IMG/VR virus record: IMGVR_UViG_3300021964_000008
Coordinates: 1-36,626 of that record
Source: a virus
Reading direction: 5' to 3' (one strand)
Length of the DNA stretch: 36,626 nt
The notes beneath the pieces were generated by a model. It was not told the origin of the DNA. It searched no databases and saw only the letters and a program-made list of their open reading frames with translations. This document shows, in pieces, positions 15,717 to 29,015 of the stretch (position 1 is its first letter; every line of letters begins with the position of its first letter). The position numbers and the translations under genes are program-made.

Positions 15717-16066
15717 AGGACGATATTAGATCCTTGATGTGGAAATAATTCGTAAGACATAATGACTGTAGCATCAGCAGCAGAGCATTTTACTTGAATA
15801 GTGTCTTGGTCGGTAAGAATAAGGAACTTACCCTCTGCGCCACCAAACTCAACAAAGTCTCCTGCGCTCATGTTCTTAGCGTGTAGGAACGTAACGTCTG
15901 TACCGTTCTTAGTCCACTTAGCGTCTACTGTGACAGCACCTGTTGCTGCTACCAGAAAATACATAACTTTGACATGGAAACCAGAAGGTGCTGTTATTAC
16001 TTCAACAAACGTACCGTTGTCGCCAGCAGCAGCTACGTAACCCTTGGAGCCTTCAAATCTTTGCAT
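15713..16066 (-). CDS. Small beta-rich structural protein
   Basis: A 117-residue beta protein: MQRFEGSKGYVAAAGDNGTF, AVTVDAKWTKNG, FVEFGGAEGKFLILTD and VIMSYELFP. The pattern of the C-terminal half parallels the protein at 6710-7069, suggesting a shared fold and possible duplication. A capsid decoration or tail role is plausible. It starts with TAATG coupling to the endolysin gene and overlaps TerL by four bases. Confidence 0.65.
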   Translation of the reverse strand: MQRFEGSKGYVAAAGDNGTFVEVITAPSGFHVKVMYFLVAATGAVTVDAKWTKNGTDVTFLHAKNMSAGDFVEFGGAEGKFLILTDQDTIQVKCSAADATVIMSYELFPHQGSNIVL

Positions 16067-16413
16067 TAGTAAGTCCAGATAACAGGTGGAGTACCACGGG
16101 TGTCAACGTGTACGAACGTCTCTGCAATGCCAATGCCTGTAAAGCCTAGCTCTAATGCACGTTCAACGATGGTATAACGAGCGCTGCCGTTTGTTATTTT
16201 TATGTCGGCAGCAATGCCCTGACTATGTGTGCCCGGCTTGTCTTTTTTTGCTTCTTGCGGGTGCGTTGCGCTACGATAGCCAGAGGTGATTACGAAGGGA
16301 AAGCCACATTCGTGGCGTAATTGGTCTAACTTCTCAAGAAACTCTGCCTCCATACGGTTTTCACCAGTAAATTGGCAGTCAAATTCGTCCACATCGAAGT
16401 ACTTTAGGTTCAT
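16066..16413 (-). CDS. Endolysin, peptidase M15 family
   Basis: A 115-residue compact zinc peptidase. Metal ligands fit H63, D70 and H102 within THSQGIAADI and FVHVDTRG, the M15 (D-Ala-D-Ala / L-Ala-D-Glu carboxypeptidase-like) signature; the substrate-side TSGYRSATHP segment precedes them. It has no signal peptide, so it would need the holin near 2 kb to reach peptidoglycan. It is unusual in lying between the terminase subunits, far from the holin. ATGA overlap with TerS. Confidence 0.9.
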   Translation of the reverse strand: MNLKYFDVDEFDCQFTGENRMEAEFLEKLDQLRHECGFPFVITSGYRSATHPQEAKKDKPGTHSQGIAADIKITNGSARYTIVERALELGFTGIGIAETFVHVDTRGTPPVIWTY

Positions 16414-16857: not shown

Positions 16858-17316
16858 GCTATTTTTAACTAGGATTTAAAATAATAGTTTTACTTGTGTA
16901 ATCAAATGGTTACTTGTTGTTAATTTTTAACCATTTTTCTTAATTTTACCTCTTGCAAACTTAAGTGGCTACTCCCATGTCGCCTTAAGTCAATCCCCCT
17001 CCCCGGGGCCATAAAAAACTTTGGATCAGGGGTTGAAAACATTTGAAAACTATGGTAGGCCACAGGGGTTGACACAGGTGGCGAATCTGTGGTAAGCGCT
17101 TGTAAAAATAAATGTTGACATGTGTGTGCCTATGTAGTAGCCACTGGACACCACCAGCACCACATCGCCCTAGCACAGAAACCAATAGACAGCAATAGTA
17201 AATAGTACCACAAATGGGGTATGTATTTCTGGGGTCAAACTGTGGTTATAATAAGCCATCGGCAACGGGGGCACCCCAGCGCTGGTCAAAAATTAACCAA
17301 TACGAGGAACTACATT
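16858..17316. promoter_or_regulatory. Divergent control region between the two operons
   Basis: About 460 bases without a convincing gene. It holds an AT-rich stretch (16860-16960), a 9-base inverted repeat AAATGGTTA/TAACCATTT (16904-16936), an ACTTAAG/CTTAAGT inverted repeat (16959-16990), the palindrome CCCCGGGG (17001-17008), direct repeats CAGGGGTTGA (17027, 17063) and TTGAAAAC (17033, 17043), TTGACA boxes (17069, 17115) and a TATAAT (17247-17252). No -35/-10 pair is well spaced. It likely holds the early rightward promoter(s) and may hold a replication origin; both are inference. Confidence 0.6.
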
Positions 17317-17628
17317 ATGACAACTAACCACAGCCAATTTGCAGTAACCACACTGCGCGAACCCTCTGCCTACTCAGCAGAGACATATCAGGACTTGCAT
17401 ACGTACCAGTTGAACCTCGAGGAACTGGACAATATGGTGTCAGCCAGTAATAAGCTAACAGCTGTACAGGGCTTGTTAAACAGTGCCAACGAGCAACGCA
17501 TCATTGACGTTGTGCTGGACTCTATAAATGAGCGCTACAACGAGCTATTGGCTCACGTTAAATGGTCAGGCTACGAACTACAGCTGGCAGTGTGGCGCGA
17601 GGAAAAAACCATGGGACAGGAGGGCTAA
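17317..17628 (+). CDS. Early small protein of unknown function
   Basis: A 103-residue protein from the ATG at 17317 (MTTNHSQFAVTT), chosen because AGGA lies eight bases upstream; the longer frame from 17221 would overlap the -10-like box. It is helical, with central ELDNMVSASNKLTAVQGLL and VVLDSINERYNELLAHVKW. It is the first gene of the rightward operon and ends three bases before the antirestriction gene, so it may act early with it. No family recognised. Confidence 0.8.
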   Translation: MTTNHSQFAVTTLREPSAYSAETYQDLHTYQLNLEELDNMVSASNKLTAVQGLLNSANEQRIIDVVLDSINERYNELLAHVKWSGYELQLAVWREEKTMGQEG

Positions 17629-17631
17629 ACA

Positions 17632-18480
17632 ATGGCTAAATTCGACGCATACCAAACGGTTACTAATAAAGTGATCGAACTAATGGAAACCCACGGCACC
17701 AACTGGTCACGGCCGTGGGCTGTAATGGGTCGGCACGTTGGGCTACAACATGCCCACGAGACCCAGAGGCCGTACGAGGGCCTCAACCAGTTGCTACTAA
17801 TGTGGTCAGGCTATGGTGATAACCGCTGGGGTACCTATAAAGCATGGCAACGCGTGGGCGGTCAGGTGCGTGGAGGTGAGAAGGGTACAGCCATTCTAAA
17901 GCCCAATTTCAAAACAGAGATTTTGGACGACGGCTCTGAGCACGAAAAAATGTGGTTCACCACAATACACGTGTTCAATGCTGAGCAGTGCGACGGGGTG
18001 CCTGAGGTAGAGACCGTGGAACTGCCTGAGATTGAAAAACAGTTGAGGGCTGAGCACTTTGTCAAAAACACCGGCGCAGTAATCCGCCACGGTCAGGACA
18101 GCGCATTCTATAGCCCTGCTCTAGACTACATCGGGATGCCTAACAGCAACCTGTTTAAAACGCCACAGGGCTACTACTCTACTCTGCTACATGAGCTGAC
18201 CCACTGGACACTGCACAAAGATCGTTGCAACCGTGACGCCTCTGGTAGCTTTGGTTCAGCCGAATACGCATTCGAGGAACTGGTGGCGGAACTGGGTGCT
18301 ACGTTTGCCTGTGTTGCTCTGGGTATCGAGTCAGAGCCACGTGAGGACCACGCGCAGTACCTCAACAGCTGGATTCGACGGCTAAAGGATGATAAAACCG
18401 CGATCACTCGCGCGTCATCTCAAGCCAAAAAAGCATTTCAGTTCTTAGAGGGTCTACAGCCCTCTGCACAGGTAGCTTGA
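17632..18480 (+). CDS. ArdC-like antirestriction protein
   Basis: A 282-residue protein with the two ArdC parts. The N-terminal ssDNA-binding domain (residues 1-105) has RPYEGLNQLLLMW, WGTYKAWQRVGGQVRGGEKGT. The C-terminal zincin domain (about 150-250) has the metalloprotease motif LLHELTHW with a downstream glutamate in FEELVAELGATF. ArdC proteins protect incoming DNA from host restriction. Being second in the early operon fits that job. The ribosome site AGGAGGGCTAAAC is repeated before the gene at 18570. Confidence 0.88.
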   Translation: MAKFDAYQTVTNKVIELMETHGTNWSRPWAVMGRHVGLQHAHETQRPYEGLNQLLLMWSGYGDNRWGTYKAWQRVGGQVRGGEKGTAILKPNFKTEILDDGSEHEKMWFTTIHVFNAEQCDGVPEVETVELPEIEKQLRAEHFVKNTGAVIRHGQDSAFYSPALDYIGMPNSNLFKTPQGYYSTLLHELTHWTLHKDRCNRDASGSFGSAEYAFEELVAELGATFACVALGIESEPREDHAQYLNSWIRRLKDDKTAITRASSQAKKAFQFLEGLQPSAQVA

Positions 18481-18569
18481 CACTGGTTCAGCCTGTAGGG
18501 TACCCTCTGGGTATCCTATGGGGTGCATCAGCACCTACTAAACACAACAGCCTATAGGAGGGCTAAACC
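18481..18569 (+). promoter_or_regulatory. Leader with short palindromes before the 75-residue gene
   Basis: This gap contains GTACCC/GGGTA palindromic bases near 18500 and the hairpin GGTGC-ATCA-GCACC near 18521-18534, then AGGAGGGCTAAAC before the ATG. A TTGACA at the ArdC stop lacks a good -10. Possibly an RNA-structured leader. Confidence 0.35.
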
Positions 18570-18797
18570 ATGAAACTGAAACCAATTGCAACCAATCAAA
18601 CCGAAATTATTTACAGCCACGGGCTACGCCTATTTTTCAGCTACGAAACGCCTGTGGCATGTCAAATGCCCTCTGGCAGGTACCACGTGACCGACAAAAA
18701 GTGGTCACAGACTACCACGCGCCATATTAATAAATGGCTAAACGGTGCAACTGCTGAGGAAATGCCACAACTGTTTTTTGACGGCATAGCGGAGTAG
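18570..18797 (+). CDS. Small conserved phage protein (DUF8033-like)
   Basis: A 75-residue protein: MKLKPIATNQTEIIYSHG, FFSYETPVACQMPSGRYH and a C-terminal WSQTTTRHINKWLNGATAEE. The pattern of a short beta sheet binding something then a THKHINKW-like helix is common in small early phage proteins often listed under a domain of unknown function. No catalytic residues are obvious. It has a strong AGGAGG site. Confidence 0.75.
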   Translation: MKLKPIATNQTEIIYSHGLRLFFSYETPVACQMPSGRYHVTDKKWSQTTTRHINKWLNGATAEEMPQLFFDGIAE

Positions 18798-18835
18798 TGT
18801 TACCATGAGATACCACAGACTAGAGAGGGAATACC

Positions 18836-19306
18836 ATGAACATATTTTACCTAGACAGAGACCCAGTAAAATCAGCACAGGCACAGTGCGACCGTCATGT
18901 AGTGAAAATGATACTAGAGACGGCTCAGCTATTATCTACGGCTCACCACGAGCTAGACGGTACTTCACCGGCTTACAAGCCCACCCATAGGAACCACCCT
19001 AGCGCTGTCTGGGTGCGCTCTAACACCATGTGTTACCGCTGGGCATGGGAGCACCTGAAAGCCCTAGGCGATGAATACAGGGAGCGATACGGTAAAACAC
19101 ATAAAACCATAGCGGAGCACCTAGACACACTAGAGCGCTACCCTGACGGTCTAGCGTACGGTGAATTCACAGACCCACCGCAGTGTATGCCTGACGTTTG
19201 CAAACGTGACGACGCTGTGCTAGCATACCAAACGTATTACAATTACAAGGCCGACGAGTGGCTTAAACTAGGTAGACCAATGAAATTCAGAGGGATAGAA
19301 CTATGA
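18836..19306 (+). CDS. Conserved phage protein, unknown function
   Basis: A 156-residue protein starting MNIFYLDRDPVKSAQAQCDR with conserved-looking HVVKMILETAQLLSTAHH, THRNHPSAVWVRSN and WEHLKALGDEYRERYGKTH. This family is widespread in T4-like and marine phages near nucleotide and repair genes, but its activity is not established to my knowledge. His, Cys and Asp residues in the N-terminal half could form an active site. It overlaps the next gene by four bases (ATGA). Confidence 0.82.
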   Translation: MNIFYLDRDPVKSAQAQCDRHVVKMILETAQLLSTAHHELDGTSPAYKPTHRNHPSAVWVRSNTMCYRWAWEHLKALGDEYRERYGKTHKTIAEHLDTLERYPDGLAYGEFTDPPQCMPDVCKRDDAVLAYQTYYNYKADEWLKLGRPMKFRGIEL

Positions 19307-19701
19307 GACGTTACAGCACTATAGCAGAATACAATTCAACAGGGGTTTGCTGGGTACCAGTGGACATTGTAAAGGACGGTGACAACCTAGCAGCTTTCAG
19401 TTGCTTTGGCCGTATCACTGACAAGGAATCGCTAGATGCTCTCAGGGAGGCTATAGAACTAGACCCTTCAGTGCTAGAGGGGTTAGATTCATTCCCTGTA
19501 GACTTCGACGTGTGGGTTGAGGTAGAGACAGCTGAGAACGAAGTGAGCGATATTTACATTTTAAACAGCGAGGGCAAACGGGAGTCTATCTATAGCCAGC
19601 TACCGTCTGACGCTGAGGACATCGTAATTTTCAATATGCAAGATGACCCTCCAGAAAACTATGATCGCGACCTGTGCTGGGCCGACGTAATGGAGTGTTG
19701 A
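19303..19701 (+). CDS. Acidic early protein, unknown function
   Basis: A 132-residue, strongly acidic protein (pieces: YSTIAEYNSTGVCWVPVDIV, LDALREAIELDPSVLEG, DEDIVIFNMQDDPPENYD-like). The fold appears alpha/beta. The charge would suit a DNA mimic or protein inhibitor, but nothing specific supports that. It is translationally coupled to the preceding gene and followed at once by three membrane miniproteins. Confidence 0.75.
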   Translation: MRRYSTIAEYNSTGVCWVPVDIVKDGDNLAAFSCFGRITDKESLDALREAIELDPSVLEGLDSFPVDFDVWVEVETAENEVSDIYILNSEGKRESIYSQLPSDAEDIVIFNMQDDPPENYDRDLCWADVMEC

Positions 19702-19703
19702 AT

Positions 19704-19784
19704 ATGACCATAGGAGAATTACTTTTATTGGTGGCTGTGTGTGGTGTAATTGTGCTTTGGAGTGAGGTAAAAAACCGTGATTAA
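19704..19784 (+). CDS. Membrane miniprotein 1 (26 residues)
   Basis: The reading frame MTIGELLLLVAVCGVIVLWS ends EVKNRD. It is almost entirely one hydrophobic helix with a charged C-terminus. It starts two bases after the preceding stop and overlaps the next frame by eight bases. Such tiny genes are often missed. Expression is not proven; tight packing and the hydrophobic-then-charged pattern support it. Confidence 0.5.
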   Translation: MTIGELLLLVAVCGVIVLWSEVKNRD

Positions 19785-19902
19785 TCTACTTTGGGGCTTC
19801 CTAGCCCTCGCTATAGTCTTTATAGGACTGCCCTTGTTTACTGCTTTAGGCCTCTTTGGACCAGAGGACACCATGCCAAAAGACGAGGATTATTATGATT
19901 GA
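19777..19902 (+). CDS. Membrane miniprotein 2 (41 residues), GTG start
   Basis: Starts with GTG at 19777 after a GTGAGG site about nine bases upstream. The protein is MINLLWGFLALAIVFIGLPL followed by FTALGLFG and an acidic tail (PEDTMPKDEDYYD). One membrane helix (residues 3-27), probably with the acidic end outside it. It overlaps both neighbours by eight bases (including their start or stop codons). Confidence 0.55.
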   Translation: MINLLWGFLALAIVFIGLPLFTALGLFGPEDTMPKDEDYYD

Positions 19903-20017
19903 CTTGTTTTGTATTATTGTGCTGGGTGCTTTGTTGTTTCTAATGCTAGAATGGGCAGACCCCAAGCGAACGATTGAAAAAGACCAAAAGCGGAGACAAA
20001 AGAATGGACAACGGTAG
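19895..20017 (+). CDS. Membrane miniprotein 3 (40 residues)
   Basis: MIDLFCIIVLGALLFLMLEW is a single membrane helix, followed by a basic tail (ADPKRTIEKDQKRRQKNGQR). By the positive-inside rule the tail would be cytoplasmic, opposite in charge to miniprotein 2. It overlaps miniprotein 2 by eight bases and the next gene by 14. Possible roles are superinfection exclusion, antiholin or membrane targeting; none is shown. Confidence 0.6.
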   Translation: MIDLFCIIVLGALLFLMLEWADPKRTIEKDQKRRQKNGQR

Positions 20018-20231
20018 TATTTTTATTGACCTAGAGCCTGACATCGTAGGCTATCAGGAGAGGGAAACAATGGCTAGAGACCTAGCTGAGTACGAGTTTC
20101 AGTTCCTAGGCTATCAGGAGGTAGTAAAACAGGCCAAGCTAGCCCTAGAACAGCGCTACAAGGCCTATTCTGAGGACGACCTGCGGAAGGTTTACAGTCA
20201 GGTCTTTGGGGAGGACTACAATGCGCTGTAG
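20004..20231 (+). CDS. Small helical protein, unknown function
   Basis: A 75-residue protein from the ATG at 20004 (MDNGSIFIDLEPDIVGYQE), chosen because GCGGAGA lies about ten bases upstream. Mostly helical and acidic (ERETMARDLAEYEFQFLGY, then AYSEDDLRKVYSQVFGED). It overlaps miniprotein 3 by 14 bases and the zinc-ribbon gene by 11. No family recognised. Confidence 0.72.
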   Translation: MDNGSIFIDLEPDIVGYQERETMARDLAEYEFQFLGYQEVVKQAKLALEQRYKAYSEDDLRKVYSQVFGEDYNAL

Positions 20232-20403
20232 AGCCTGTGATCGCATACTAGAAGACGCTGAGTTGACTAAAAAAGACAACTATGGTAATTTCCTAGACCT
20301 CTGTGGCTACTGCTTAGACGCAGTTACACGACTAGAGGCTGAGGACAACTTTTTTGTCTCTGATAGCAATTTTAGCTTGACAAATGACGACAACGAGATA
20401 TAA
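20221..20403 (+). CDS. Small zinc-ribbon protein
   Basis: A 60-residue protein from the ATG at 20221 (MRCRACDRILEDAELTKK), preceded by GGGGAGG. Cysteine pairs CRAC and CGYC with 25-30 residues between form a zinc ribbon or knuckle; the tail is acidic (DSNFSLTNDDNEI). It may bind nucleic acid or RNA polymerase. Its last codons overlap the -35/-10 of the promoter at 20377-20404. Confidence 0.75.
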   Translation: MRCRACDRILEDAELTKKDNYGNFLDLCGYCLDAVTRLEAEDNFFVSDSNFSLTNDDNEI

Positions 20404-20404
20404 T
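20377..20404 (+). promoter_or_regulatory. Strong sigma70 promoter inside the zinc-ribbon gene end
   Basis: Perfect TTGACA and perfect TATAAT separated by 16 bases, over the last codons and stop of the zinc-ribbon gene. Transcription should start near 20411, at the edge of the palindrome/repeat array. It would drive the 124-residue gene and possibly the replication genes. Confidence 0.85.
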
Positions 20405-20407
20405 AAC

Positions 20408-20489
20408 TTAAGTAGTACCTAAGTAGTTAAACTAAAGTAATTAATTATTAGTAATACTACTTAGGTTACTACCTAAGTTACTACCTAAG
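20408..20489. repeat. Palindrome and direct-repeat array (operator or leader structure)
   Basis: AT-rich. ACCTAAGTAG (20417-20426) is the inverse of CTACTTAGGT (20457-20466). ACTTAGGT-TACT-ACCTAAGT (20459-20478) is a perfect 8-base hairpin. TTACTACCTAAG repeats in tandem at 20466 and 20478, with a partial third copy. TTAAGTAG and CTAAGTAG also recur at 20408 and 20419. It lies just after a strong promoter: operator, RNA leader or origin iterons are all possible. Confidence 0.8.
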
Positions 20490-20541
20490 TTACTAACAGG
20501 GGCTGGAGAAACCTCCCCCAATACCCGTAAGGATTATTATC

Positions 20542-20916
20542 ATGGCCTATCCTGAGAACACATTAGAAGACGTAAGAGACAACATTGAGAGCTTCCAGAA
20601 GTACATACAGCAGGTGTTAGACCACAGCGACTGCACAGAGGTAGACAACACCTTAGTCAACCTACTAGAGTCATTAGGTGAGGCTCTAGAAGACACAGAG
20701 GACACAACGTACAAATTCAAGCTACGTGTGCCGGTAGACTTACCCTTTGAAATCACAGCACCAAAAGAGGTCAGGGAGGACGTACTGCAATTCCTAATGG
20801 AGGAAAAAGTCCACCAGTTGCTGGAACCGTACGGCATCAAAGAATACAGGCTTGACTATCTTCCTTGTCGTGATTATCAGTTAGTTTTATGTGCCCCAGA
20901 TAACAAACAGGCTTGA
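20542..20916 (+). CDS. Acidic protein of unknown function
   Basis: A 124-residue protein: a helical, acidic N-half (MAYPENTLEDVRDNIESF ... LLESLGEALEDTEDTTY), then a beta-alpha segment with FKLRVPVDLPFEITAPKEVRED and a helical end. No motif recognised. It is the sole gene between the repeat-array promoter (20377) and the SSB promoter (20913), so it may be regulated through the array. A GTAAGGA-like site precedes the ATG. Confidence 0.75.
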   Translation: MAYPENTLEDVRDNIESFQKYIQQVLDHSDCTEVDNTLVNLLESLGEALEDTEDTTYKFKLRVPVDLPFEITAPKEVREDVLQFLMEEKVHQLLEPYGIKEYRLDYLPCRDYQLVLCAPDNKQA

Positions 20917-20941
20917 CACAAACCGAAACCTGTGAGATACT
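20913..20941 (+). promoter_or_regulatory. Promoter for the replication genes
   Basis: TTGACA, 17-base spacer, then GATACT with TGA just before it (extended -10), followed by ATTAGTG. It ends about 60 bases before the SSB ATG; the leader contains a CCCCTGTAGTTCTAGGGG partial hairpin (20951-20968). ATACTATTAG is shared with 26193-26202 and 26424-26433. Confidence 0.8.
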
Positions 20942-21003
20942 ATTAGTGTCCCCTGTAGTTCTAGGGGACAAAACCAAAGACGTTAAACGGAGACTATTCC
21001 AAT

Positions 21004-21375
21004 ATGGCTAGTACAATCGAAGGTATCGTTAACTTCAGCAACATCACCGCCCACGACGTTTACAATGGGCAGTCTACTGGTAAGTTCAGCATGACCATCA
21101 CGCTGTCAGAAGAGGACGCGGCACAACTTGCGGCTTCTGGCGTGAAGATCAAGGACTACAACGGCGCTAAACAGCGCAAGTTTTCCACGCAGTACGAAGT
21201 GGGCAACTATGACGCTGAGGGTGACCGACGCGTGGGAGAAGTACCGTACAACTCCCGTGTGCGCCTCCAGTACGACCTAGGTAAACCACATCCGGTTCAC
21301 GGTGTGTCTACCTACCTCAAGGCTGTCAAGGTTCTTGAGGAAGCAGAGTTCTCAGCACAAGCCGCTGAGTTCTAA
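21004..21375 (+). CDS. Single-stranded DNA-binding protein
   Basis: A 123-residue OB-fold-like protein: MASTIEGIVNFSNITAHDVY, GKFSMTITLSEEDAAQL, YEVGNYDAEG and a C-terminal tail VLEEAEFSAQAAEF, acidic with a terminal Phe as in T7 gp2.5-type proteins (the tail docks polymerase and helicase). It coats ssDNA during replication. Located directly before the primase-helicase, under its own promoter. Confidence 0.85.
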   Translation: MASTIEGIVNFSNITAHDVYNGQSTGKFSMTITLSEEDAAQLAASGVKIKDYNGAKQRKFSTQYEVGNYDAEGDRRVGEVPYNSRVRLQYDLGKPHPVHGVSTYLKAVKVLEEAEFSAQAAEF

Positions 21376-21378
21376 ACA

Positions 21379-22998
21379 ATGGAGAAGGCCAAGTTCCTTC
21401 GCCATGAGGGCTGTCCGAAGTGTAATTCTTCGGACTCCCTCGCTATCTATGACGACAACGGTCAACACTGCTTCAGTGCTGGCTGTGGGTACCACGTAAG
21501 CGGAGACGGTAAAGTGACAACAGTTACACCATCATTACCAAAGGCCAAAGCCCTTGAGATGTTCGGGGTTGTTGCCGCCATTCCTACCCGCAAGATATCC
21601 TCCGACACCTGCGCTCACTACGGCGTGACAGTGGAGTACAGCAACACCGGAGGCATCAGCAAACACCACTACCCTTATTACCATCCCGACACTAGTGAGA
21701 TGTGCGCCACCAAGGTGCGCCAAGTGGACACCAAGAACTTTTATGCTACTGGTGACCTCGCCAAGGCAGGACTCTTTGGTCAAACCGTGTGTCGTGGCTC
21801 TGGTAAGTTCGTGACCATCACAGAGGGTGAGCTTGACGCTCTGGCAGTGTACGAGATGTTCGGCAAGTCCTATGACGTTGTGTCGCTGAAGTGTGGTGCG
21901 TCCAACGCAGAGCGTGAGATCAAGCAGTCCCTTGAGTGGCTCGAAGGGTACGACAACGTAGTCCTGTGCTTTGACAACGACAAGGCAGGACAAGCGGCAG
22001 TTGACTCAGTGAAGGACCTATTCAGTCCCAACAAGCTGAAGATCTGCAAGCTACCTGTGAAGGACGCTTCGGACATGCTCATGGCTAACCGGATCAAGGA
22101 CTTCACTACAGCATGGTGGAACGCCAAAGTTTACCGGCCTGACGGCATTGTTGCAGGGACGGACACTTGGGACGCTCTGGTCAAAAAGAGACAGGTAAAG
22201 TCCATCCCTTACCCTTGGGAAGGCCTGAACCGCATCACACGAGGACACAGACCCTATGAGCTTGTCACGATTACCAGCGGTAGTGGAATGGGGAAATCAC
22301 AATTCATTCGCGAAATTGAGTACGATCTACTACAGCGATGCGAAGGAAATATTGGAGTCCTTGCTCTTGAGGAAGATCTGGCCCGAACTAGTCTTGGGAT
22401 CATGTCGGTGGCGGCAAATAGACCGCTACACTTGGAAGAGGACACGCCTGTGGACGAACTTCGCCCCTTCTGGGATGCCACACTGGGTAGTGGAAGGTAC
22501 TACCTATTCGACCACTGGGGGTCAACTTCAACCGACAATCTCTTGGCCCGTGTACGCTACATGGCAAAGGCCTTGGACTGCCGGTACGTTATACTTGACC
22601 ACCTGTCCATCGTCGTGTCTTCCCAAGAAAGCGGAGATGAGCGCAAAGCAATCGACGAGATTATGACCAAGTTGCGAACCCTTGTCGCTGAGACTGGCAT
22701 CAGTCTGTTCCTCGTGTCACACCTACGCCGGTCACAAGGCAAGGCACACGAGGACGGTGCTCAGATCAGCTTGGGTGAGCTTCGGGGTTCTCAGGCTATC
22801 GCCCAGTTGTCCGACATTGTGATCGGCATGGAACGTGACCAGCAGAACCCAGACGACTCGATCCGTAACACCACTACAGTCCGTGTGTTGAAGAACCGTT
22901 ACACCGGAGAAACAGGCCCCGCTTGTTGGCTCCAGTACGACCGTAACACCGGACGGATGGCAGAAGTACCTAACCCAGAAGTAGGGGGTGACTTTTGA
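21379..22998 (+). CDS. Fused DNA primase-helicase
   Basis: A 539-residue T7 gp4-type protein. A zinc-binding domain has C12, C15, C31 and C36. The TOPRIM primase core has EGELDALAVYEMF (about 149) and CFDNDKAGQ (about 197). The DnaB-like helicase has Walker A SGSGMGKS (about 300), Walker B VILDHLS (about 406), an SHLRRSQGK segment and an ARG-finger-like NRYTGETG. It unwinds and primes at the fork with the polymerase that follows. Confidence 0.95.
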   Translation: MEKAKFLRHEGCPKCNSSDSLAIYDDNGQHCFSAGCGYHVSGDGKVTTVTPSLPKAKALEMFGVVAAIPTRKISSDTCAHYGVTVEYSNTGGISKHHYPYYHPDTSEMCATKVRQVDTKNFYATGDLAKAGLFGQTVCRGSGKFVTITEGELDALAVYEMFGKSYDVVSLKCGASNAEREIKQSLEWLEGYDNVVLCFDNDKAGQAAVDSVKDLFSPNKLKICKLPVKDASDMLMANRIKDFTTAWWNAKVYRPDGIVAGTDTWDALVKKRQVKSIPYPWEGLNRITRGHRPYELVTITSGSGMGKSQFIREIEYDLLQRCEGNIGVLALEEDLARTSLGIMSVAANRPLHLEEDTPVDELRPFWDATLGSGRYYLFDHWGSTSTDNLLARVRYMAKALDCRYVILDHLSIVVSSQESGDERKAIDEIMTKLRTLVAETGISLFLVSHLRRSQGKAHEDGAQISLGELRGSQAIAQLSDIVIGMERDQQNPDDSIRNTTTVRVLKNRYTGETGPACWLQYDRNTGRMAEVPNPEVGGDF

Positions 22999-23156
22999 TT
23001 TGCTGGACCTGTAAAGACGACCTGATCTGGAACGTAGACCATTCAGAACAGGACGACCAAGGCAACGAGGTACTGGTTAGTTACTTCCATTGCCCTACCT
23101 GCAACGCTGAGGTTGTTTTTTACCACGGAGAGTCAAAAGATAGTGATTTATCTTGA
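22995..23156 (+). CDS. Small zinc-ribbon protein with TTG start
   Basis: A 53-residue protein read from TTG at 22995, overlapping the helicase stop (TTGA), with AGGGGGTGAC immediately upstream. Sequence MICWTCKDDLIWNVDHSEQD, then YFHCPTCNAEVVFYHGE. CWTC and CPTC form a four-Cys zinc ribbon. Its end overlaps the polymerase start by 14 bases. Likely a small replication or transcription accessory; role unknown. Confidence 0.72.
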   Translation: MICWTCKDDLIWNVDHSEQDDQGNEVLVSYFHCPTCNAEVVFYHGESKDSDLS

Positions 23157-24849
23157 CATTGAGACAGACGGACTTTCACCGACAGTGATCTGGTGTGCTG
23201 TTACCCGTGAAAACGGGGTAAATACCGTACACACTACCCCAGACACCCTCTGTGAGGCTCTCAGTGGCTCTCAGAGCGTGATTGGGCACAACCTAATAGG
23301 GTACGACCTCCCAGCCTTAGAGCGCCTCTGGGGCGTTTCTGTGGCCTCTGAGAGGGTGTTAGACACGCTCATTTTGTCCCGTCTGGCAGACCCAAGTCGG
23401 TCTGGTGGGCACTCTCTGGCGGCTTGGGGTAATCGTCTGGGCTACCAAAAGGGTGACTACAACGACTGGTCACACCTGAATGACGAGATGATCGAGTACT
23501 GCAAACGTGACACAGAAGTCACAGAAAAGGTTTACCAAGCCTTGACAAATGAACTGGCTGAGTTTTCAGAGGACTCAATTCAGCTAGAGCACAAGGTGGC
23601 TTGGGTTATCACACAGCAGGAGCGCAACGGCTGGTTGTTAGATCAAAAGATGGCGCATGAACTAATAGCAGAACTAAAGGAGAAGCAATATGAGCTTCAA
23701 GAGCGAGTGCAACAGACTTTCTATCCGTTGCCTGTATATGTTAAGAGTGTTTCGCCAAGGTTTAAAAAGGACGGCACGTTATCTTCCGTGGGCCTCAAGT
23801 TCCTTGGTGACCGCTGGACGCAAGTCGCGGGTGACTTCTCGCGGATTGACTTCCCAGAGTTCAACCTAGGCTCTAGGCAACAGATCGGGAAGTACCTAAT
23901 GCACTTCGGGTGGAAGCCTGAGAAGTTCACTGAAACAGGACAGCCAATCGTAGACGAGAGCGTCCTGTCAGGAGTCTCAGGTATACCCGAAGCGCAGATG
24001 ATCGCTGAGTACCTACTGGTGCAGAAGCGTATCGCTCAGGTACAGTCTTGGCTTGAGCATGTTGAGAACGACGGTAGAGTTCATGGTCAGGTAGTCACCA
24101 ATGGTGCCGTCACTGGACGCATGACCCACCGAACGCCCAACATGGCTCAAGTCCCAGCAAGCTACAGCCCTTACGGCAAGCAGTGTCGCCAGTGCTGGAC
24201 TGTGCCACAGGGTAAATCACTAGTCGGCTTTGACGCTTCTGGGCTGGAACTCAGGATGCTGGCTCACTACATGAACGACAAGGAGTACACTAATGTCCTG
24301 CTCAGAGAAGACATTCATACTAGAAACCAAATGGCTACGGGACTTGAAACTCGTGCTCAGGCAAAAACTTTCATCTATGCTTTCCTCTACGGGGCAGGAG
24401 ACGCCAAAATTGGAGCTATCGTCGGAGGAAATGCTAAAGTTGGCTCAGAACTCAAAGAGCGATTTCTACGAAATACACCTGCTCTTGCAGACCTTCGAGA
24501 TCGTGTTGGACGAGCGGCTGAGCGAGGCTACGTTAAAGGTCTTGACGGAAGGAAGCTCTGGGTTAGATCCAATCATAGTGCATTAAACACACTGCTACAG
24601 GGTGCTGGGGCCATAGTTATGAAACAGGCGTTGGTAACACTGGACGACTATGCCCAGCAGTGGGACTTAGACTACAAGTTTGTGGGGAACGTACATGACG
24701 AAGTACAATCGGAGGTGGTTACAGAACAAGCAGAGAAGTTCGGTTGGCTTGCTGTCGAGTGCCTCAAGGCGGCTGGCGTACACTTTGGACTGCGGTGCCC
24801 CCTCGACGGAGAGTTCAAAGTTGGAAGAACATGGGAGGAAACTCACTGA
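23143..24849 (+). CDS. Family A DNA polymerase with 3'-5' exonuclease
   Basis: From GTG at 23143 (MIYLDIETDGLSP), with GGAGAG about ten bases upstream; 568 residues. The exonuclease domain has DIE (residues 5-7), a GHNLIGYDLPAL segment and the YCKRDTEVT motif. Polymerase motif A is DASGLELRM (about 364), motif B RAQAKTFIYAFLYG (about 402-415) and motif C VHDE (about 518). The residue matching E. coli Phe762 is Tyr, as in T7. It would copy the genome with the primase-helicase. Confidence 0.95.
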   Translation: MIYLDIETDGLSPTVIWCAVTRENGVNTVHTTPDTLCEALSGSQSVIGHNLIGYDLPALERLWGVSVASERVLDTLILSRLADPSRSGGHSLAAWGNRLGYQKGDYNDWSHLNDEMIEYCKRDTEVTEKVYQALTNELAEFSEDSIQLEHKVAWVITQQERNGWLLDQKMAHELIAELKEKQYELQERVQQTFYPLPVYVKSVSPRFKKDGTLSSVGLKFLGDRWTQVAGDFSRIDFPEFNLGSRQQIGKYLMHFGWKPEKFTETGQPIVDESVLSGVSGIPEAQMIAEYLLVQKRIAQVQSWLEHVENDGRVHGQVVTNGAVTGRMTHRTPNMAQVPASYSPYGKQCRQCWTVPQGKSLVGFDASGLELRMLAHYMNDKEYTNVLLREDIHTRNQMATGLETRAQAKTFIYAFLYGAGDAKIGAIVGGNAKVGSELKERFLRNTPALADLRDRVGRAAERGYVKGLDGRKLWVRSNHSALNTLLQGAGAIVMKQALVTLDDYAQQWDLDYKFVGNVHDEVQSEVVTEQAEKFGWLAVECLKAAGVHFGLRCPLDGEFKVGRTWEETH

Positions 24850-25286
24850 TGTTCCAGATAGACTTCCTAGAGGATGACCATTTTGATCTAGGAGGAGACA
24901 CAAAGGAGTGCAGTAAGTGCAAGACTACGCTTCCCTTGTCGTCCTTCTCCAGACACTCAGGAGGCAACTACCTTAGACCAGAGTGCAAGAAGTGCAACAA
25001 CGAACTGTCCAAAGTAAGGGAGAAACTAAAGCAAGAGTACGGGATGCCAGAGTCGGGATACAACTGTCCTATCTGCCTTAATGACGAAGATTCCGTCAGG
25101 GGCAAGGGCAACACGAAGAACGGTTCTTGGGTTATAGACCACTGTCACGAAACTGAGGAGTTTAGAGGCTGGTTATGTCATAAATGTAATAGATCACTAG
25201 GAGGGTTTGACGACAGTGTTGACACGTTGTTGAGAGCCGTCACTTATTTGAGGGAAGCTAATGAAAAATCTGTACACACTGGTTGA
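24849..25286 (+). CDS. Recombination endonuclease VII-like
   Basis: A 145-residue protein starting at ATG 24849 (TGATG overlap with the polymerase stop; a longer frame would sit inside polymerase). Residues 20-55 hold a zinc-binding region (CSKCKTT ... CKKCNN). The nuclease domain has CPICLND, then VIDHCHETEEFRGWLCHKCN and LGGFDDSVDTL, the HNH/Endo VII hallmark. It resolves branched DNA before packaging and may help degrade host DNA. Confidence 0.92.
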   Translation: MFQIDFLEDDHFDLGGDTKECSKCKTTLPLSSFSRHSGGNYLRPECKKCNNELSKVREKLKQEYGMPESGYNCPICLNDEDSVRGKGNTKNGSWVIDHCHETEEFRGWLCHKCNRSLGGFDDSVDTLLRAVTYLREANEKSVHTG

Positions 25287-26124
25287 CGACATCTACAAGT
25301 TGGTGTCCACAAAGGAACCGACTGAGGGTGTTGACGTAGAAGCCTGTATTGAGTTGTTTGGCGAGAACGTCAAGGACCTGATGCGTAAAGAGTTCACACA
25401 GGAGCGTGACGGTAGAAAGCTGCGAATGTCTAACATTGGGCGCGAAGACCGTTACCTGTGGAACCTCTACAATGACGTAGAAGGGACTGACGACATACAG
25501 CCGCACACTTACGTTAAGTTTCTGTACGGGCATTTGATTGAAGAACTGTTGCTGTTCCTGACGCGAATGGCTGGGCACGAGGTAACTGATGAGCAAAAGC
25601 GGTGTGAAGTCAACGGTATTAAAGGTAGTATGGACTGCAAAATTGACGGTGTTGTCACTGATGTCAAGTCTGTATCGTCTTACGGGTTTAGAAAGTTTAA
25701 AGATGGAAGTCTGGCTTTTGACGACCCGTTTGGATACGTTGCTCAAATTAAAGGCTATGCGCACTCAGAAGGAGAGACAAAGTTCGGATGGCTAGCAATG
25801 GACAAGCAGAACGGACACCTGACGTACCTCCTGTACGACACGGAAGACACTCAGGCTCCTATCTATGACCTGATTAGCTATGACATTGAGGAGCGAATTG
25901 AACACGTAAAAAAGCTAGTGGAGCAACCTACGCCCCCAGACGTTTGCTACGAAACTATCGAAGATGGAAAGAGTGGAAACCTGAAACTCGCCGTAGGATG
26001 CTCCTACTGTTCTTACAAAAAACAATGCTGGCCTACCGTTCGCGCCTTCGCGTACTCTGGCGGTCCTAGATTTCTCGTGGAGGTACACAATGAGCCGAAG
26101 GTTCAAGAAATCAAACTTTCGTAG
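25261..26124 (+). CDS. PD-(D/E)XK exonuclease, RecB/Cas4-like
   Basis: A 287-residue nuclease. The core has KGSMDCKIDGVVTDVKSVSS (about 121-140) giving the D ... (D)xK motif, then GYVAQIKGYA (QxxxY-like). Near the C-terminus cysteines C-x18-C-x2-C-x5-C (ending CSYCSYKKQCW) match the iron-sulfur-like cluster of Cas4/AddB nucleases. It would be a recombination or host-DNA-degrading exonuclease. Overlaps Endo VII by 26 bases and the next gene by 35. Confidence 0.85.
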   Translation: MKNLYTLVDDIYKLVSTKEPTEGVDVEACIELFGENVKDLMRKEFTQERDGRKLRMSNIGREDRYLWNLYNDVEGTDDIQPHTYVKFLYGHLIEELLLFLTRMAGHEVTDEQKRCEVNGIKGSMDCKIDGVVTDVKSVSSYGFRKFKDGSLAFDDPFGYVAQIKGYAHSEGETKFGWLAMDKQNGHLTYLLYDTEDTQAPIYDLISYDIEERIEHVKKLVEQPTPPDVCYETIEDGKSGNLKLAVGCSYCSYKKQCWPTVRAFAYSGGPRFLVEVHNEPKVQEIKLS

Positions 26125-26476
26125 TATTTTTGAAGAAGACGTTGCCAAGATTCTAAAAGGAGACTTTGACTATGAACCCTATAGTATACCTTATACTATT
26201 AGCCGCAGTTACCGTCCTGACTTCGTTCATCACGCTTCTGGTGTTCTCGTGGAGTGTAAGGGATTCTTTAGAGAAGGAGACACCAAGAAGTACACCAGCA
26301 TCAGAGACAGTCTCCCAGAAGACCAGCAACTCGTCTTCGTCCTGATGAGTCCCAACAAGAAAATACGAAAAGGTGCCAAAATGACTATGGCTGAATGGTG
26401 TGACAAAGAGCGTTTTTTGTGGTATACTATTAGTACACTTGAGGAGTTGGTTGACCATGCTTTATCTAACACTTGA
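26090..26476 (+). CDS. T7 endonuclease I-like Holliday junction resolvase
   Basis: A 128-residue protein (T7 gp3 is 149). The catalytic set is visible: E15/E16 in SIFEEDVAKIL, D44 in YRPDF, and E55 and K57 in VLVECKGFF, matching Glu20, Asp55, Glu65, Lys67 of T7 gp3. It cuts four-way junctions and debranches DNA for packaging. The gene contains a 19-base palindrome (26181-26199) and the promoter at 26400-26428. Confidence 0.92.
   Translation: MSRRFKKSNFRSIFEEDVAKILKGDFDYEPYSIPYTISRSYRPDFVHHASGVLVECKGFFREGDTKKYTSIRDSLPEDQQLVFVLMSPNKKIRKGAKMTMAEWCDKERFLWYTISTLEELVDHALSNT
26181..26199. promoter_or_regulatory. Palindrome ATAGTATACCTTATACTAT
   Basis: Perfect 8-base arms around CCT, inside the endonuclease I-like gene (codons for PYSIPYTI). 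The right arm is followed by TAG, giving TATACTATTAG, also present at the promoter near 26423. No good -35 is seen for either strand. It could be an operator. Confidence 0.5.
26400..26428 (+). promoter_or_regulatory. Internal promoter near the end of the endonuclease gene
   Basis: GTGACA, 17-base spacer, TATACT with TGG before it (extended -10), then ATTAGT. Transcription would start near 26435, about 22 bases before the ATG at 26457. It would add expression of the small genes and the ribonucleotide reductase. Confidence 0.82.
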
Positions 26477-26645
26477 TGAGCTACGGGACAAGTTGCTAGA
26501 CCAGTACGACCCTGATGACCTGATTGAACTGCTTCAGATATCAGCAGAGGAACTTCTAGACCGCTTTGAGGACAAACTAATCAACCGTTTTGAAACATTA
26601 CAAGACGAGTTTCTTGAGGAAGTTGAGGACGACGATGAGTATTGA
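26457..26645 (+). CDS. Small acidic coiled-coil protein
   Basis: A 62-residue protein from ATG 26457 (MLYLTLDELRDKLLDQYD), with GAGGAG about ten bases upstream. Helical and acidic throughout, ending FLEEVEDDDEY. I prefer this start to the upstream one at 26400, which lies in the promoter. Overlaps the resolvase gene by 20 bases and the next by 11. Function unknown. Confidence 0.75.
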   Translation: MLYLTLDELRDKLLDQYDPDDLIELLQISAEELLDRFEDKLINRFETLQDEFLEEVEDDDEY

Positions 26646-26898
26646 TGACGCAACGCCAGACGAGTGGGACGCAGTAAGTAAGCCACAGCACTACAACACA
26701 GGTAAAGTAGAGTGCATCGACGCAATGAGAGCCGCTAGCCGCAACGCAGAGCTAGAGCCGTTTCAAGGCTACCTGTGGCTCAACGCCTTTAAGTACCTGT
26801 GGCGCTGGCCCTACAAGCGTAAACCAATCGAGGACCTACGCAAGGCCCGTTGGTACATTGATCGACTTATACAGGAGCACAACAATGGAGATAATTAA
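26635..26898 (+). CDS. DUF3310 protein (nucleotide kinase-like)
   Basis: An 87-residue protein: MSIDDATPDEWDAVSKPQHYN, then VECIDAMRA, a helical FQGYLWLNAFKYLWRW and KPIEDLRKARWYIDRLI. The PxHY, ECID and FKYLWR pattern is that of DUF3310, widespread in phages and sometimes called nucleotide kinase, with unclear activity. Its place before a ribonucleotide reductase fits nucleotide metabolism. Confidence 0.9.
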   Translation: MSIDDATPDEWDAVSKPQHYNTGKVECIDAMRAASRNAELEPFQGYLWLNAFKYLWRWPYKRKPIEDLRKARWYIDRLIQEHNNGDN

Positions 26899-27142
26899 GG
26901 GAAACTTTGACAAGAAGAAGGAGGAAGAGCCTGTAAACAAACAGGAGCAGATACGAGAGGCGTTGAAAGCCCTACTGTACAACACAGACCTCAGCCCTTA
27001 TGACGAGATGGTGTTGATACTGAACAGCACAGCTGGAGAAGGCACCAGTATCTCAACAAACTGCCAGCTGGCTGATACTCATTTTCTGCTTTGCTTTGCC
27101 GCACAGACGCTTTTAGACGGCTCGATTACATTAGGAGAATAA
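26885..27142 (+). CDS. Small protein before the reductase, unknown function
   Basis: An 85-residue protein from ATG 26885 (MEIIKGNFDKKKEEE), with a charged N-terminus followed by helical REALKALLYNTDLSPYDEMV and a C-terminal HFLLCFAAQTLLDGSI. No family identified. It overlaps the DUF3310 gene by 14 bases and ends one base before the reductase start. Confidence 0.75.
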   Translation: MEIIKGNFDKKKEEEPVNKQEQIREALKALLYNTDLSPYDEMVLILNSTAGEGTSISTNCQLADTHFLLCFAAQTLLDGSITLGE

Positions 27143-27143
27143 C

Positions 27144-29015
27144 TTGGACGCATATCAACAGTACATACACAAGTCACGTTACGCACGTTACCTGCCAGAG
27201 CAGCAACGGCGTGAGACTTGGAAAGAAACAGTAGGGCGGTACGTGGACTACTGGGGTGACAAGCTAGACGACAAGGAGCGCAAAGAAGTCTTCTGGGCTA
27301 TCCATGACCTTGATGTTATGCCGTCTATGCGAGCACTGATGACGGCAGGTAAGGCTCTTGATCGTGACAACGTAGCTGGTTTTAACTGTAGTTATATGCC
27401 TATTGACCATCCTAAAGCATTTGATGAGATGATGTACGTCCTCATGTGCGGTACAGGTGTTGGCTTCAGTGTTGAACGTCAGTACATTAACAAACTACCT
27501 GAAGTCGCGGAGGACTTCCATGAAACCGATACAGTTATTCACGTTGCCGACAGCAAAATTGGTTGGGCTAAAGCGTACAGAGAGCTTATCAGCTTGCTCT
27601 ATTCAGGCCAACTTCCAAAGTGGGACGTATCTACAGTTAGACCTGCTGGGGCAACCCTTAATACTTTCGGGGGTCGAGCAAGTGGTCCGGAACCTCTTGT
27701 TGACTTGTTTAAGTTCACCACTGAAGTCTTTCGCTCCGCTGCTGGAAGAAAACTTAGCTCCATCGAGTGTCACGATATCTGCTGTAAGATTGCACAGATC
27801 GTCGTCGTGGGCGGGGTCAGACGAAGTGCTCTCATCAGTCTCAGTAATCTCACGGACGATCGCATCCGACGATGCAAGTCAGGACAATGGTGGGTAGATA
27901 ATCCTCAACGTGGTCTAGCTAACAACAGTGCTTGTTACACTGAGAAGCCAGACTTCCAAGCCTTCCTTAACGAGTGGACTAGTTTATATGAATCACGATC
28001 TGGTGAACGAGGTGTCTTTAGTCGAGTGGCAAGTCAAAAGCAAGCTGAGAAGAACGGCAGACGAGATGCTACCTATGATTTTGGAACTAATCCATGTAGT
28101 GAGATCATCCTCCGACCCTACCAATTCTGTAACCTATCGGAAGTTGTTGTCAGGTCAACCGATACGCTCAAAGACCTCAAACGAAAAGTACGAATTGCGA
28201 CTATCCTTGGAACTCTCCAAGCTACCCTGACGGACTTTCGTTATCTGCGTAAGGTGTGGAAGGACAACACTGAGGAAGAAGCCCTGCTAGGCGTGTCCCT
28301 GACAGGTATCATGGATCACCCTGTTATGTCTGGGAGGACAGGAGATGAGTATAAGACGCTCAAGAAATGGCTGGATGATTTACGACAAGAAGCTATCGAC
28401 TGTAATAAGAGATTTGCTAGCCGGTTGGGGATTAATGTGTCTACTGCTATCACTGCTGTCAAGCCTTCCGGAACCGTTAGCCAACTGGTTGATTCGGCCT
28501 CTGGGATACACCCTCGCTATTCTGCTCAATACATCCGCAGGGTAAGGGCAGACTCGCGTGATCCTCTGTGTGCCGTCTTAGAGGCCTCTGGAGTGCCTGT
28601 AGAGGACGACGTTATGTCACCCACTACCAAGGTATTCAGCTTCCCCATTAAAGCGCCTGACGGGGCTGTGACGGCCTCTGAGATGTCTGCGATGGAGCAG
28701 GTGAAGCTGTGGGAGGTGTATCAGGATCACTGGTGTGAGCACAAGCCGTCAATGACCTGTTACTATCGTGACCATGAGTTTCTGGAGGTGGGACAGTGGC
28801 TGTACAACAAGTTTGACAAGGTAAGCGGCATCAGCTTCCTGCCTTACTCAGACCACACGTATCAGCAAGCGCCCTACGAGCCGATAGACCTGAAAACGTA
28901 CAAGGCATTAGCCAAGGCATTTCCAGAGTCTATCGACTGGGACATCTCTGAAGGGAGTGACATGACCGAAGGGTCCCAGCAGTTAGCCTGTACCGGCAAC
29001 AACTGCGAACTGTGA
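27144..29015 (+). CDS. nrdJ: Class II (B12-dependent) ribonucleoside-triphosphate reductase
   Basis: A 623-residue monomeric reductase like that of Lactobacillus leichmannii. The TTG start follows TTAGGAGAATAAC. Key residues: C82 (in NCSYMP) and C329 as the redox pair, thiyl C318 in NPCSEI with N316 and E320 alongside; PSGTVSQL in the barrel; C616 and C621 in the tail CTGNNC, which re-reduces the active site. It is shorter than the bacterial enzyme (739) and lacks an ATP cone. It makes dNTPs from host nucleotides using adenosylcobalamin. Confidence 0.95.
   Translation: MDAYQQYIHKSRYARYLPEQQRRETWKETVGRYVDYWGDKLDDKERKEVFWAIHDLDVMPSMRALMTAGKALDRDNVAGFNCSYMPIDHPKAFDEMMYVLMCGTGVGFSVERQYINKLPEVAEDFHETDTVIHVADSKIGWAKAYRELISLLYSGQLPKWDVSTVRPAGATLNTFGGRASGPEPLVDLFKFTTEVFRSAAGRKLSSIECHDICCKIAQIVVVGGVRRSALISLSNLTDDRIRRCKSGQWWVDNPQRGLANNSACYTEKPDFQAFLNEWTSLYESRSGERGVFSRVASQKQAEKNGRRDATYDFGTNPCSEIILRPYQFCNLSEVVVRSTDTLKDLKRKVRIATILGTLQATLTDFRYLRKVWKDNTEEEALLGVSLTGIMDHPVMSGRTGDEYKTLKKWLDDLRQEAIDCNKRFASRLGINVSTAITAVKPSGTVSQLVDSASGIHPRYSAQYIRRVRADSRDPLCAVLEASGVPVEDDVMSPTTKVFSFPIKAPDGAVTASEMSAMEQVKLWEVYQDHWCEHKPSMTCYYRDHEFLEVGQWLYNKFDKVSGISFLPYSDHTYQQAPYEPIDLKTYKALAKAFPESIDWDISEGSDMTEGSQQLACTGNNCEL

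Follow-up and report, generated by a model that had tools for sequence, protein, structure and literature searches.

An overlapping trio of one-helix miniprotein genes in the early operon of an uncultured marine podovirus-like lineage, and its shifting relatives

In the early region of an uncultured virus, three very short ORFs follow one another with overlapping ends, and each is predicted to encode little more than a single hydrophobic helix. An initial annotation regarded them as a set that might act as a membrane complex. This raises three questions: whether frames of this size are genes, whether they are kept together as a unit in related viruses, and what their products might do.

Genomic setting and anatomy of the three ORFs

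The window, by which we mean the complete 36.6 kb virus record analysed here, was read as deriving from an uncultured, marine, podovirus-like lineage. Pfam and PHROG matches in the window include a terminase, an SU10-type portal, a family A polymerase, a phage endonuclease I and a B12-type ribonucleotide reductase. A T7-type RNA polymerase ORF is not evident in its ORF list. The trio lies on the + strand in the rightward (early) gene set, in agreement with its initial assignment to the early operon. It is preceded by genes for an ArdC-like antirestriction protein and then a pyrimidine-dimer-glycosylase-like protein, and is followed, in order, by g75, g60, a Gp2.5-like single-stranded DNA-binding protein (SSB) and a primase. 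The features needed below are as follows.

1883-2281, strand opposite to the trio: holin-like gene (PF11351)
16066-16413, strand opposite to the trio: peptidase M15, endolysin-like
17632-18480, same direction as the trio: ArdC-like antirestriction protein (ArdcN and zincin-like MPTase-PolyVal domains; Pfam/PHROG matches)
18836-19306, +: g156, pyrimidine-dimer glycosylase-like protein (phrog_624; PHROG 624, E 8e-51)
19303-19701, +: g132, upstream neighbour of the trio
19704-19784, +: ORF1, one-helix miniprotein, 26 aa, ATG start, MTIGELLLLVAVCGVIVLWSEVKNRD
19777-19902, +: ORF2, one-helix miniprotein, 41 aa, GTG start, acidic tail containing DTMP
19895-20017, +: ORF3, one-helix miniprotein, 40 aa, ATG start, basic tail, in the slot directly upstream of g75
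20004-20231, +: g75, conserved small soluble helical protein, the syntenic anchor 3' of the trio (alignment)
20221-20403, +: g60, small protein with CxxC pairs (MRCRACDRILED), the next anchor after g75

The two anchors are well represented in related viruses. g75 was recovered in 191 loci, and its predicted structure consists of three helices at moderate confidence (pLDDT 69); a search of isolate phages with g75 gave no match. The homologous start motif of g60, MRC[KRS]AC, was present in 108 loci. On the upstream side, g132 retrieved no relatives when used as a query. Proteins of the g156 type (PHROG 624) are widespread in marine and other phages.

The frames of 26, 41 and 40 residues are present exactly as initially described, with 8-base overlaps between ORF1 and ORF2 (19777-19784) and between ORF2 and ORF3 (19895-19902). 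ORF3 in turn overlaps g75 by 14 bases. A single hydrophobic helix had been proposed for each product, and the maximum 19-residue Kyte-Doolittle means (2.37, 2.46 and 2.46 for ORF1, ORF2 and ORF3, respectively) bear this out. The hydrophobic core of ORF1 is short, about 14 residues after E5, and in ORF2 a single helix is predicted at residues 2-26. None of the three carries a net charge ahead of the hydrophobic stretch. The tails differ as had been noted (mixed, acidic and basic), with C-terminal net charges of 0 in ORF1, -5 in ORF2 and +5 in ORF3. ORF1, ORF2 and ORF3 are each preceded by a Shine-Dalgarno-like match, of 4, 5 and 4 nt, respectively; that of ORF2 is GAGGT, located 8 nt upstream of the GTG codon, and is the good ribosome site pointed out for this start.

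The lysis-type genes occupy 1883-2571 and 16066-16413 on the opposite strand, about 17 kb (holin-like) and about 3.3 kb (endolysin-like) from the trio. The trio is thus far from the lysis genes, and its reported distance from the holin is correct. On the other side, a perfect TTGACA-N16-TATAAT promoter-like site at 20377-20404 straddles the g60 stop codon, and the region 20377-20495 continues with clustered direct and inverted repeats of the TACTACCTAAGT type. By sequence, the arrangement resembles an operator region that would separate the trio genes from those for replication. A conserved promoter after g60 was considered and found to be unsupported; a 12-of-12 match to the site occurred in only 2 of 111 loci.

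Coding potential of the ORFs

Gene tiling that scored length, start codon, Shine-Dalgarno match and spacing picked ORF1, ORF2 and ORF3, placing all three between g132 and g75. Strict criteria for one-helix mini-ORFs were then applied to the + strand of 17200-29015 (20-45 aa, 17-residue mean of at least 2.4, Shine-Dalgarno match of at least 4). The trio provided the only qualifying mini-ORFs, in one chain of three. In 400 second-order Markov sequences of the same composition, the mean number of qualifying ORFs was 0.0075, and a chain of two never occurred.

Coding constraint was examined on codon alignments of nine one-helix families from relatives rather than on the ORFs of the window itself. 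The pN/pS ratios, calculated from sequence pairs that are non-independent, were 0.15-0.45 in the coding frame. In the same columns, they were 0.46-1.18 in the +1 frame and 1.01-3.09 in the +2 frame. One family was an exception, its ratio in the +1 frame (0.46) being about equal to that in the coding frame (0.45). Judged from these alignments, the one-helix families of the relatives show purifying selection, which shows that genes of this sort in the lineage are real. The initial annotation had named broken frames in relatives and a lack of constraint as outcomes that would speak against coding; neither was seen in the related families.

It could be argued that the trio consists of chance open frames between g132 and g75, as the ORFs are very short and constraint was measured on related families, not on these exact sequences. 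The Markov simulation, the Shine-Dalgarno-like sites and the overlaps stand against this, as do the relatives found for two of the three ORFs (see below) and the constraint within the relatives' families. We consider chance frames hardly credible; ORF1, ORF2 and ORF3 are very probably genes.

Relatives in uncultured viruses

With the primase and g156 as queries, 160 loci of uncultured viruses were recovered; the g75 alignment yielded 78 loci, some of which were additional. At the DNA level, neither megablast nor blastn gave a match in phages. No isolate phage is close, the nearest isolate-phage primase match being 49% identical. In many of the relatives, the interval between g156 and g75 contains one to three one-helix mini-ORFs.

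ORF1 was the first of the 562 window ORFs (E 2.7e-5) when scored with a two-sequence HMM built from locus L149 (4066-4143, MTLAELTIYATFLVVMIIWSEVRED) and locus L088 (223-309). A blastp match to the L149 protein was also obtained (E 0.001, 42% over 26 aa). ORF1 fits a one-helix family defined here and designated WSEV, whose members are 25-28 aa in length and end the helix with W-[SV]-E-[VI]-[KR].

ORF2 likewise ranked first of the 562 ORFs (E 5.4e-4) with an HMM of 11 DT[VM]P-type relatives, and matched L123 4491-4643 in blastp (E 4.9e-5). It fits the DT[VM]P family, also defined here, in which a helix with a central proline is followed by D-T-[MV]-P and an acidic tail. The curated set of 11 sequences was used in place of an automatic iterative HMM for ORF2, which had drifted to unrelated helices. 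Searches of isolate phages with a DT[VM]P family sequence returned chance matches only, no locus was confirmed in a search with the ORF2 alignment, and the back-translated GPEDTMPK pattern matched nothing. No relative of the ORF2 family was found among solved structures.

ORF3 shares its position, its basic tail and the 14-base overlap with proteins of five loci (L064, L065, L067, L068 and L069); MTEIANYFALFVSVVVSVWFVLAIIDALLWPFGTQLQDRERKELLRNRKNDDR is an example of the slot proteins that resemble it in these respects. Against a profile of the slot proteins, ORF3 scored E 0.041 and ranked second behind a chance ORF. As this score is not significant, we make no claim of homology for ORF3. On sequence comparison, ORF1 and ORF2 thus have recognisable relatives in uncultured marine phages, and ORF3 fits a positional slot directly before g75.

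The initial annotation knew of no described family for the trio. In agreement with this, scans of 36 minis (the trio and 33 representatives) against Pfam, PHROGs, NCBIfam and PADLOC gave nothing convincing.

Distribution among related early regions

One-helix minis accounted for 298 of the 1874 tiled genes in 161 early regions, window included. The 235 distinct mini sequences fell into at least 25 clusters and 25 singletons. Among 113 distinct tiled loci, a mini lay directly upstream of g75 in 51 and was absent there in 62, and 77 had at least one mini among the three genes upstream of g75. The enrichment directly before g75 is moderate: in the same tiling, a mini occupies 45% of these positions, versus about 25% of the remaining upstream ones.

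Runs directly upstream of g75 in the same 113 loci consisted of two minis in 11 loci and of three in 2. The runs of three are those of the window and of L083, whose members differ in order and kind. The mini families of the relatives occur singly, in other orders and on either side of the glycosylase-like gene; ORF1-like and ORF2-like genes are also found upstream of g156 (L149, L088, L115, L118 and L123). A conserved trio is ruled out by the presence of three in a row in only 2 of 113 loci and by the separate occurrence of the families. Since the families are separate and reordered in the relatives, we regard the trio as one arrangement of exchangeable parts, not as a conserved complex. Of the initial proposal, what stands is that these are real small one-helix early genes with differing tails and no described family; the conserved set or complex is not supported.

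The density of minis averaged 2.36 per 3.6 kb over 72 complete regions, with up to six different minis per 3.6 kb. By the same method, T7 and five isolates, only six controls in all, gave 0.45-1.35 per 3.6 kb. As judged from these tiled sequences, the early operon of this lineage carries interchangeable one-helix miniproteins, often just upstream of g75.

Comparison with known phage miniproteins

One-helix early proteins have precedents in phage T7. gp0.5, gp1.4, gp1.5 and gp6.3 are 29-51 aa long with 17-residue Kyte-Doolittle means of 2.1-2.6, and the trio is similarly small and strongly hydrophobic. The T7 proteins are encoded by small genes among early and replication genes, like the trio, and gp1.5 combines a helix with an acidic tail, as does ORF2. 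T7 differs in having no overlapping chain of three and a lower density. These proteins constitute a loose kind rather than a homologous family, and the likeness is one of anatomy and position: each member of the trio has at most about 50 residues and one strongly hydrophobic stretch, and the genes are located with early and replication genes, at a distance from those for lysis. T7 gp0.5 is described in the literature as a class I gene that is still uncharacterised and has a putative transmembrane helix (PMC12798971).

Another precedent is found in Rhizobium phage Pasto, in which gp024 and gp025 (L242 6913-7145) are abutting genes of 39 and 37 codons, encode one transmembrane helix each and lie shortly upstream of the primase gene, as the trio does. 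Their sequences are different, they are annotated as N-out/C-in and they do not display the acidic/basic tail pattern. Taking the T7 and Pasto precedents into account, the trio represents new members of a known but poorly understood kind. The best-studied precedent found for takeover of the host at its membrane is Gp11 of the Staphylococcus phage PhiNM1, which we use as a functional model. This small membrane protein is made early, binds the host envelope enzymes MurG and DivIC, and blocks division (PMC11237401). Here the host type is different and a single gene is involved, and we point to a likeness without claiming homology.

Possible functions

From the features described above, we infer that the trio would be translated in vivo, probably with translational coupling, from the early (rightward) operon, and that each product would insert into the inner membrane as an independent single-pass protein. 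The three would belong to a shifting set of accessory genes of this uncultured marine podovirus-like lineage. Each helix would most likely dock onto a host inner-membrane protein and modulate or block it early in infection. Rapid turnover next to conserved replication genes is a common mark of accessory genes involved in host interaction. We favour a host-directed accessory role because the genes turn over in a mosaic manner, lie early and have an antirestriction gene as a neighbour; that these independent miniproteins serve accessory host takeover in the wide sense, counter-defence included, seems to us about evenly balanced between right and wrong. More tentatively, and with a distinctly smaller chance of being correct, the one-helix miniproteins of the lineage might make up a modular cassette whose unrelated members are swapped one gene at a time in the early operon. 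Such a cassette would serve as an exchangeable toolkit directed at complexes of the host inner membrane or at membrane-borne defences, and the trio would be one loadout of it.

Other functions can be considered for small membrane proteins of the early operon. Exclusion proteins are often of this type, and one or more of the miniproteins, predicted to lie in the inner membrane, might keep the DNA of a second phage from entering. One or two dedicated exclusion proteins are the usual number in known phages, whereas this lineage has up to six different minis per 3.6 kb, and these match no described family; we therefore consider superinfection exclusion unlikely. Slightly more doubtful is a role in replication, in which the basic tail of ORF3 might bind DNA or a replication protein and tether it to the membrane, as phi29 p16.7 does. 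The genes for SSB and primase do lie downstream of the trio, and the slot ahead of g75 is repeatedly occupied by one-helix proteins with a basic tail. On the other hand, that slot lacks a mini in 62 of 113 tiled loci, even though those found through primase or SSB carry replication genes, and in the window the perfect promoter-like site separates the trio from the replication genes.

We find it improbable that the miniproteins act in lysis timing or as membrane-depolarising toxins, although their length and one-helix anatomy resemble those of small antiholins and of type I toxins such as TisB and Hok. The lysis-type genes are distant and on the opposite strand, and the trio is not clustered with endolysin or spanin genes in the manner of holins and antiholins. 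Some antiholins, for example T4 RI, are also unlinked to lysis genes, so that this lowers the antiholin reading rather than dismissing it. As for a toxin, Rfam gave no match anywhere in the window and hence no known antisense antitoxin RNA, although unfamiliar RNAs would escape Rfam. Just as improbable is a single hetero-oligomeric membrane complex of the three proteins. The gene overlaps suggest co-translation in a fixed ratio, and the tails of ORF2 and ORF3 are oppositely charged, but the three genes are not kept together in the relatives, and counterparts of ORF1 and of ORF2 are found there on their own, in some cases upstream of g156.

Minis such as these are smaller than many annotation cut-offs allow and are not covered by the family libraries searched. 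Their coding constraint and unusual density in this uncultured marine phage lineage make them a concrete and limited group of candidate host-membrane effectors that can be tested. Should any one of them act on a host membrane complex or on a membrane-borne defence, others could be sought in the variable slot; the main value lies in the density and turnover of the cassette more than in the trio itself.

Further one-helix families were observed in the same operon, at L013 3482-4430 and similar loci. Those exemplified by MIEQWQPWFDVLLLLGVCGILTPLFIYIDKKERDK and METSVLFLLWFCCILGAVWIVIKGDNDA are well conserved and under coding constraint.
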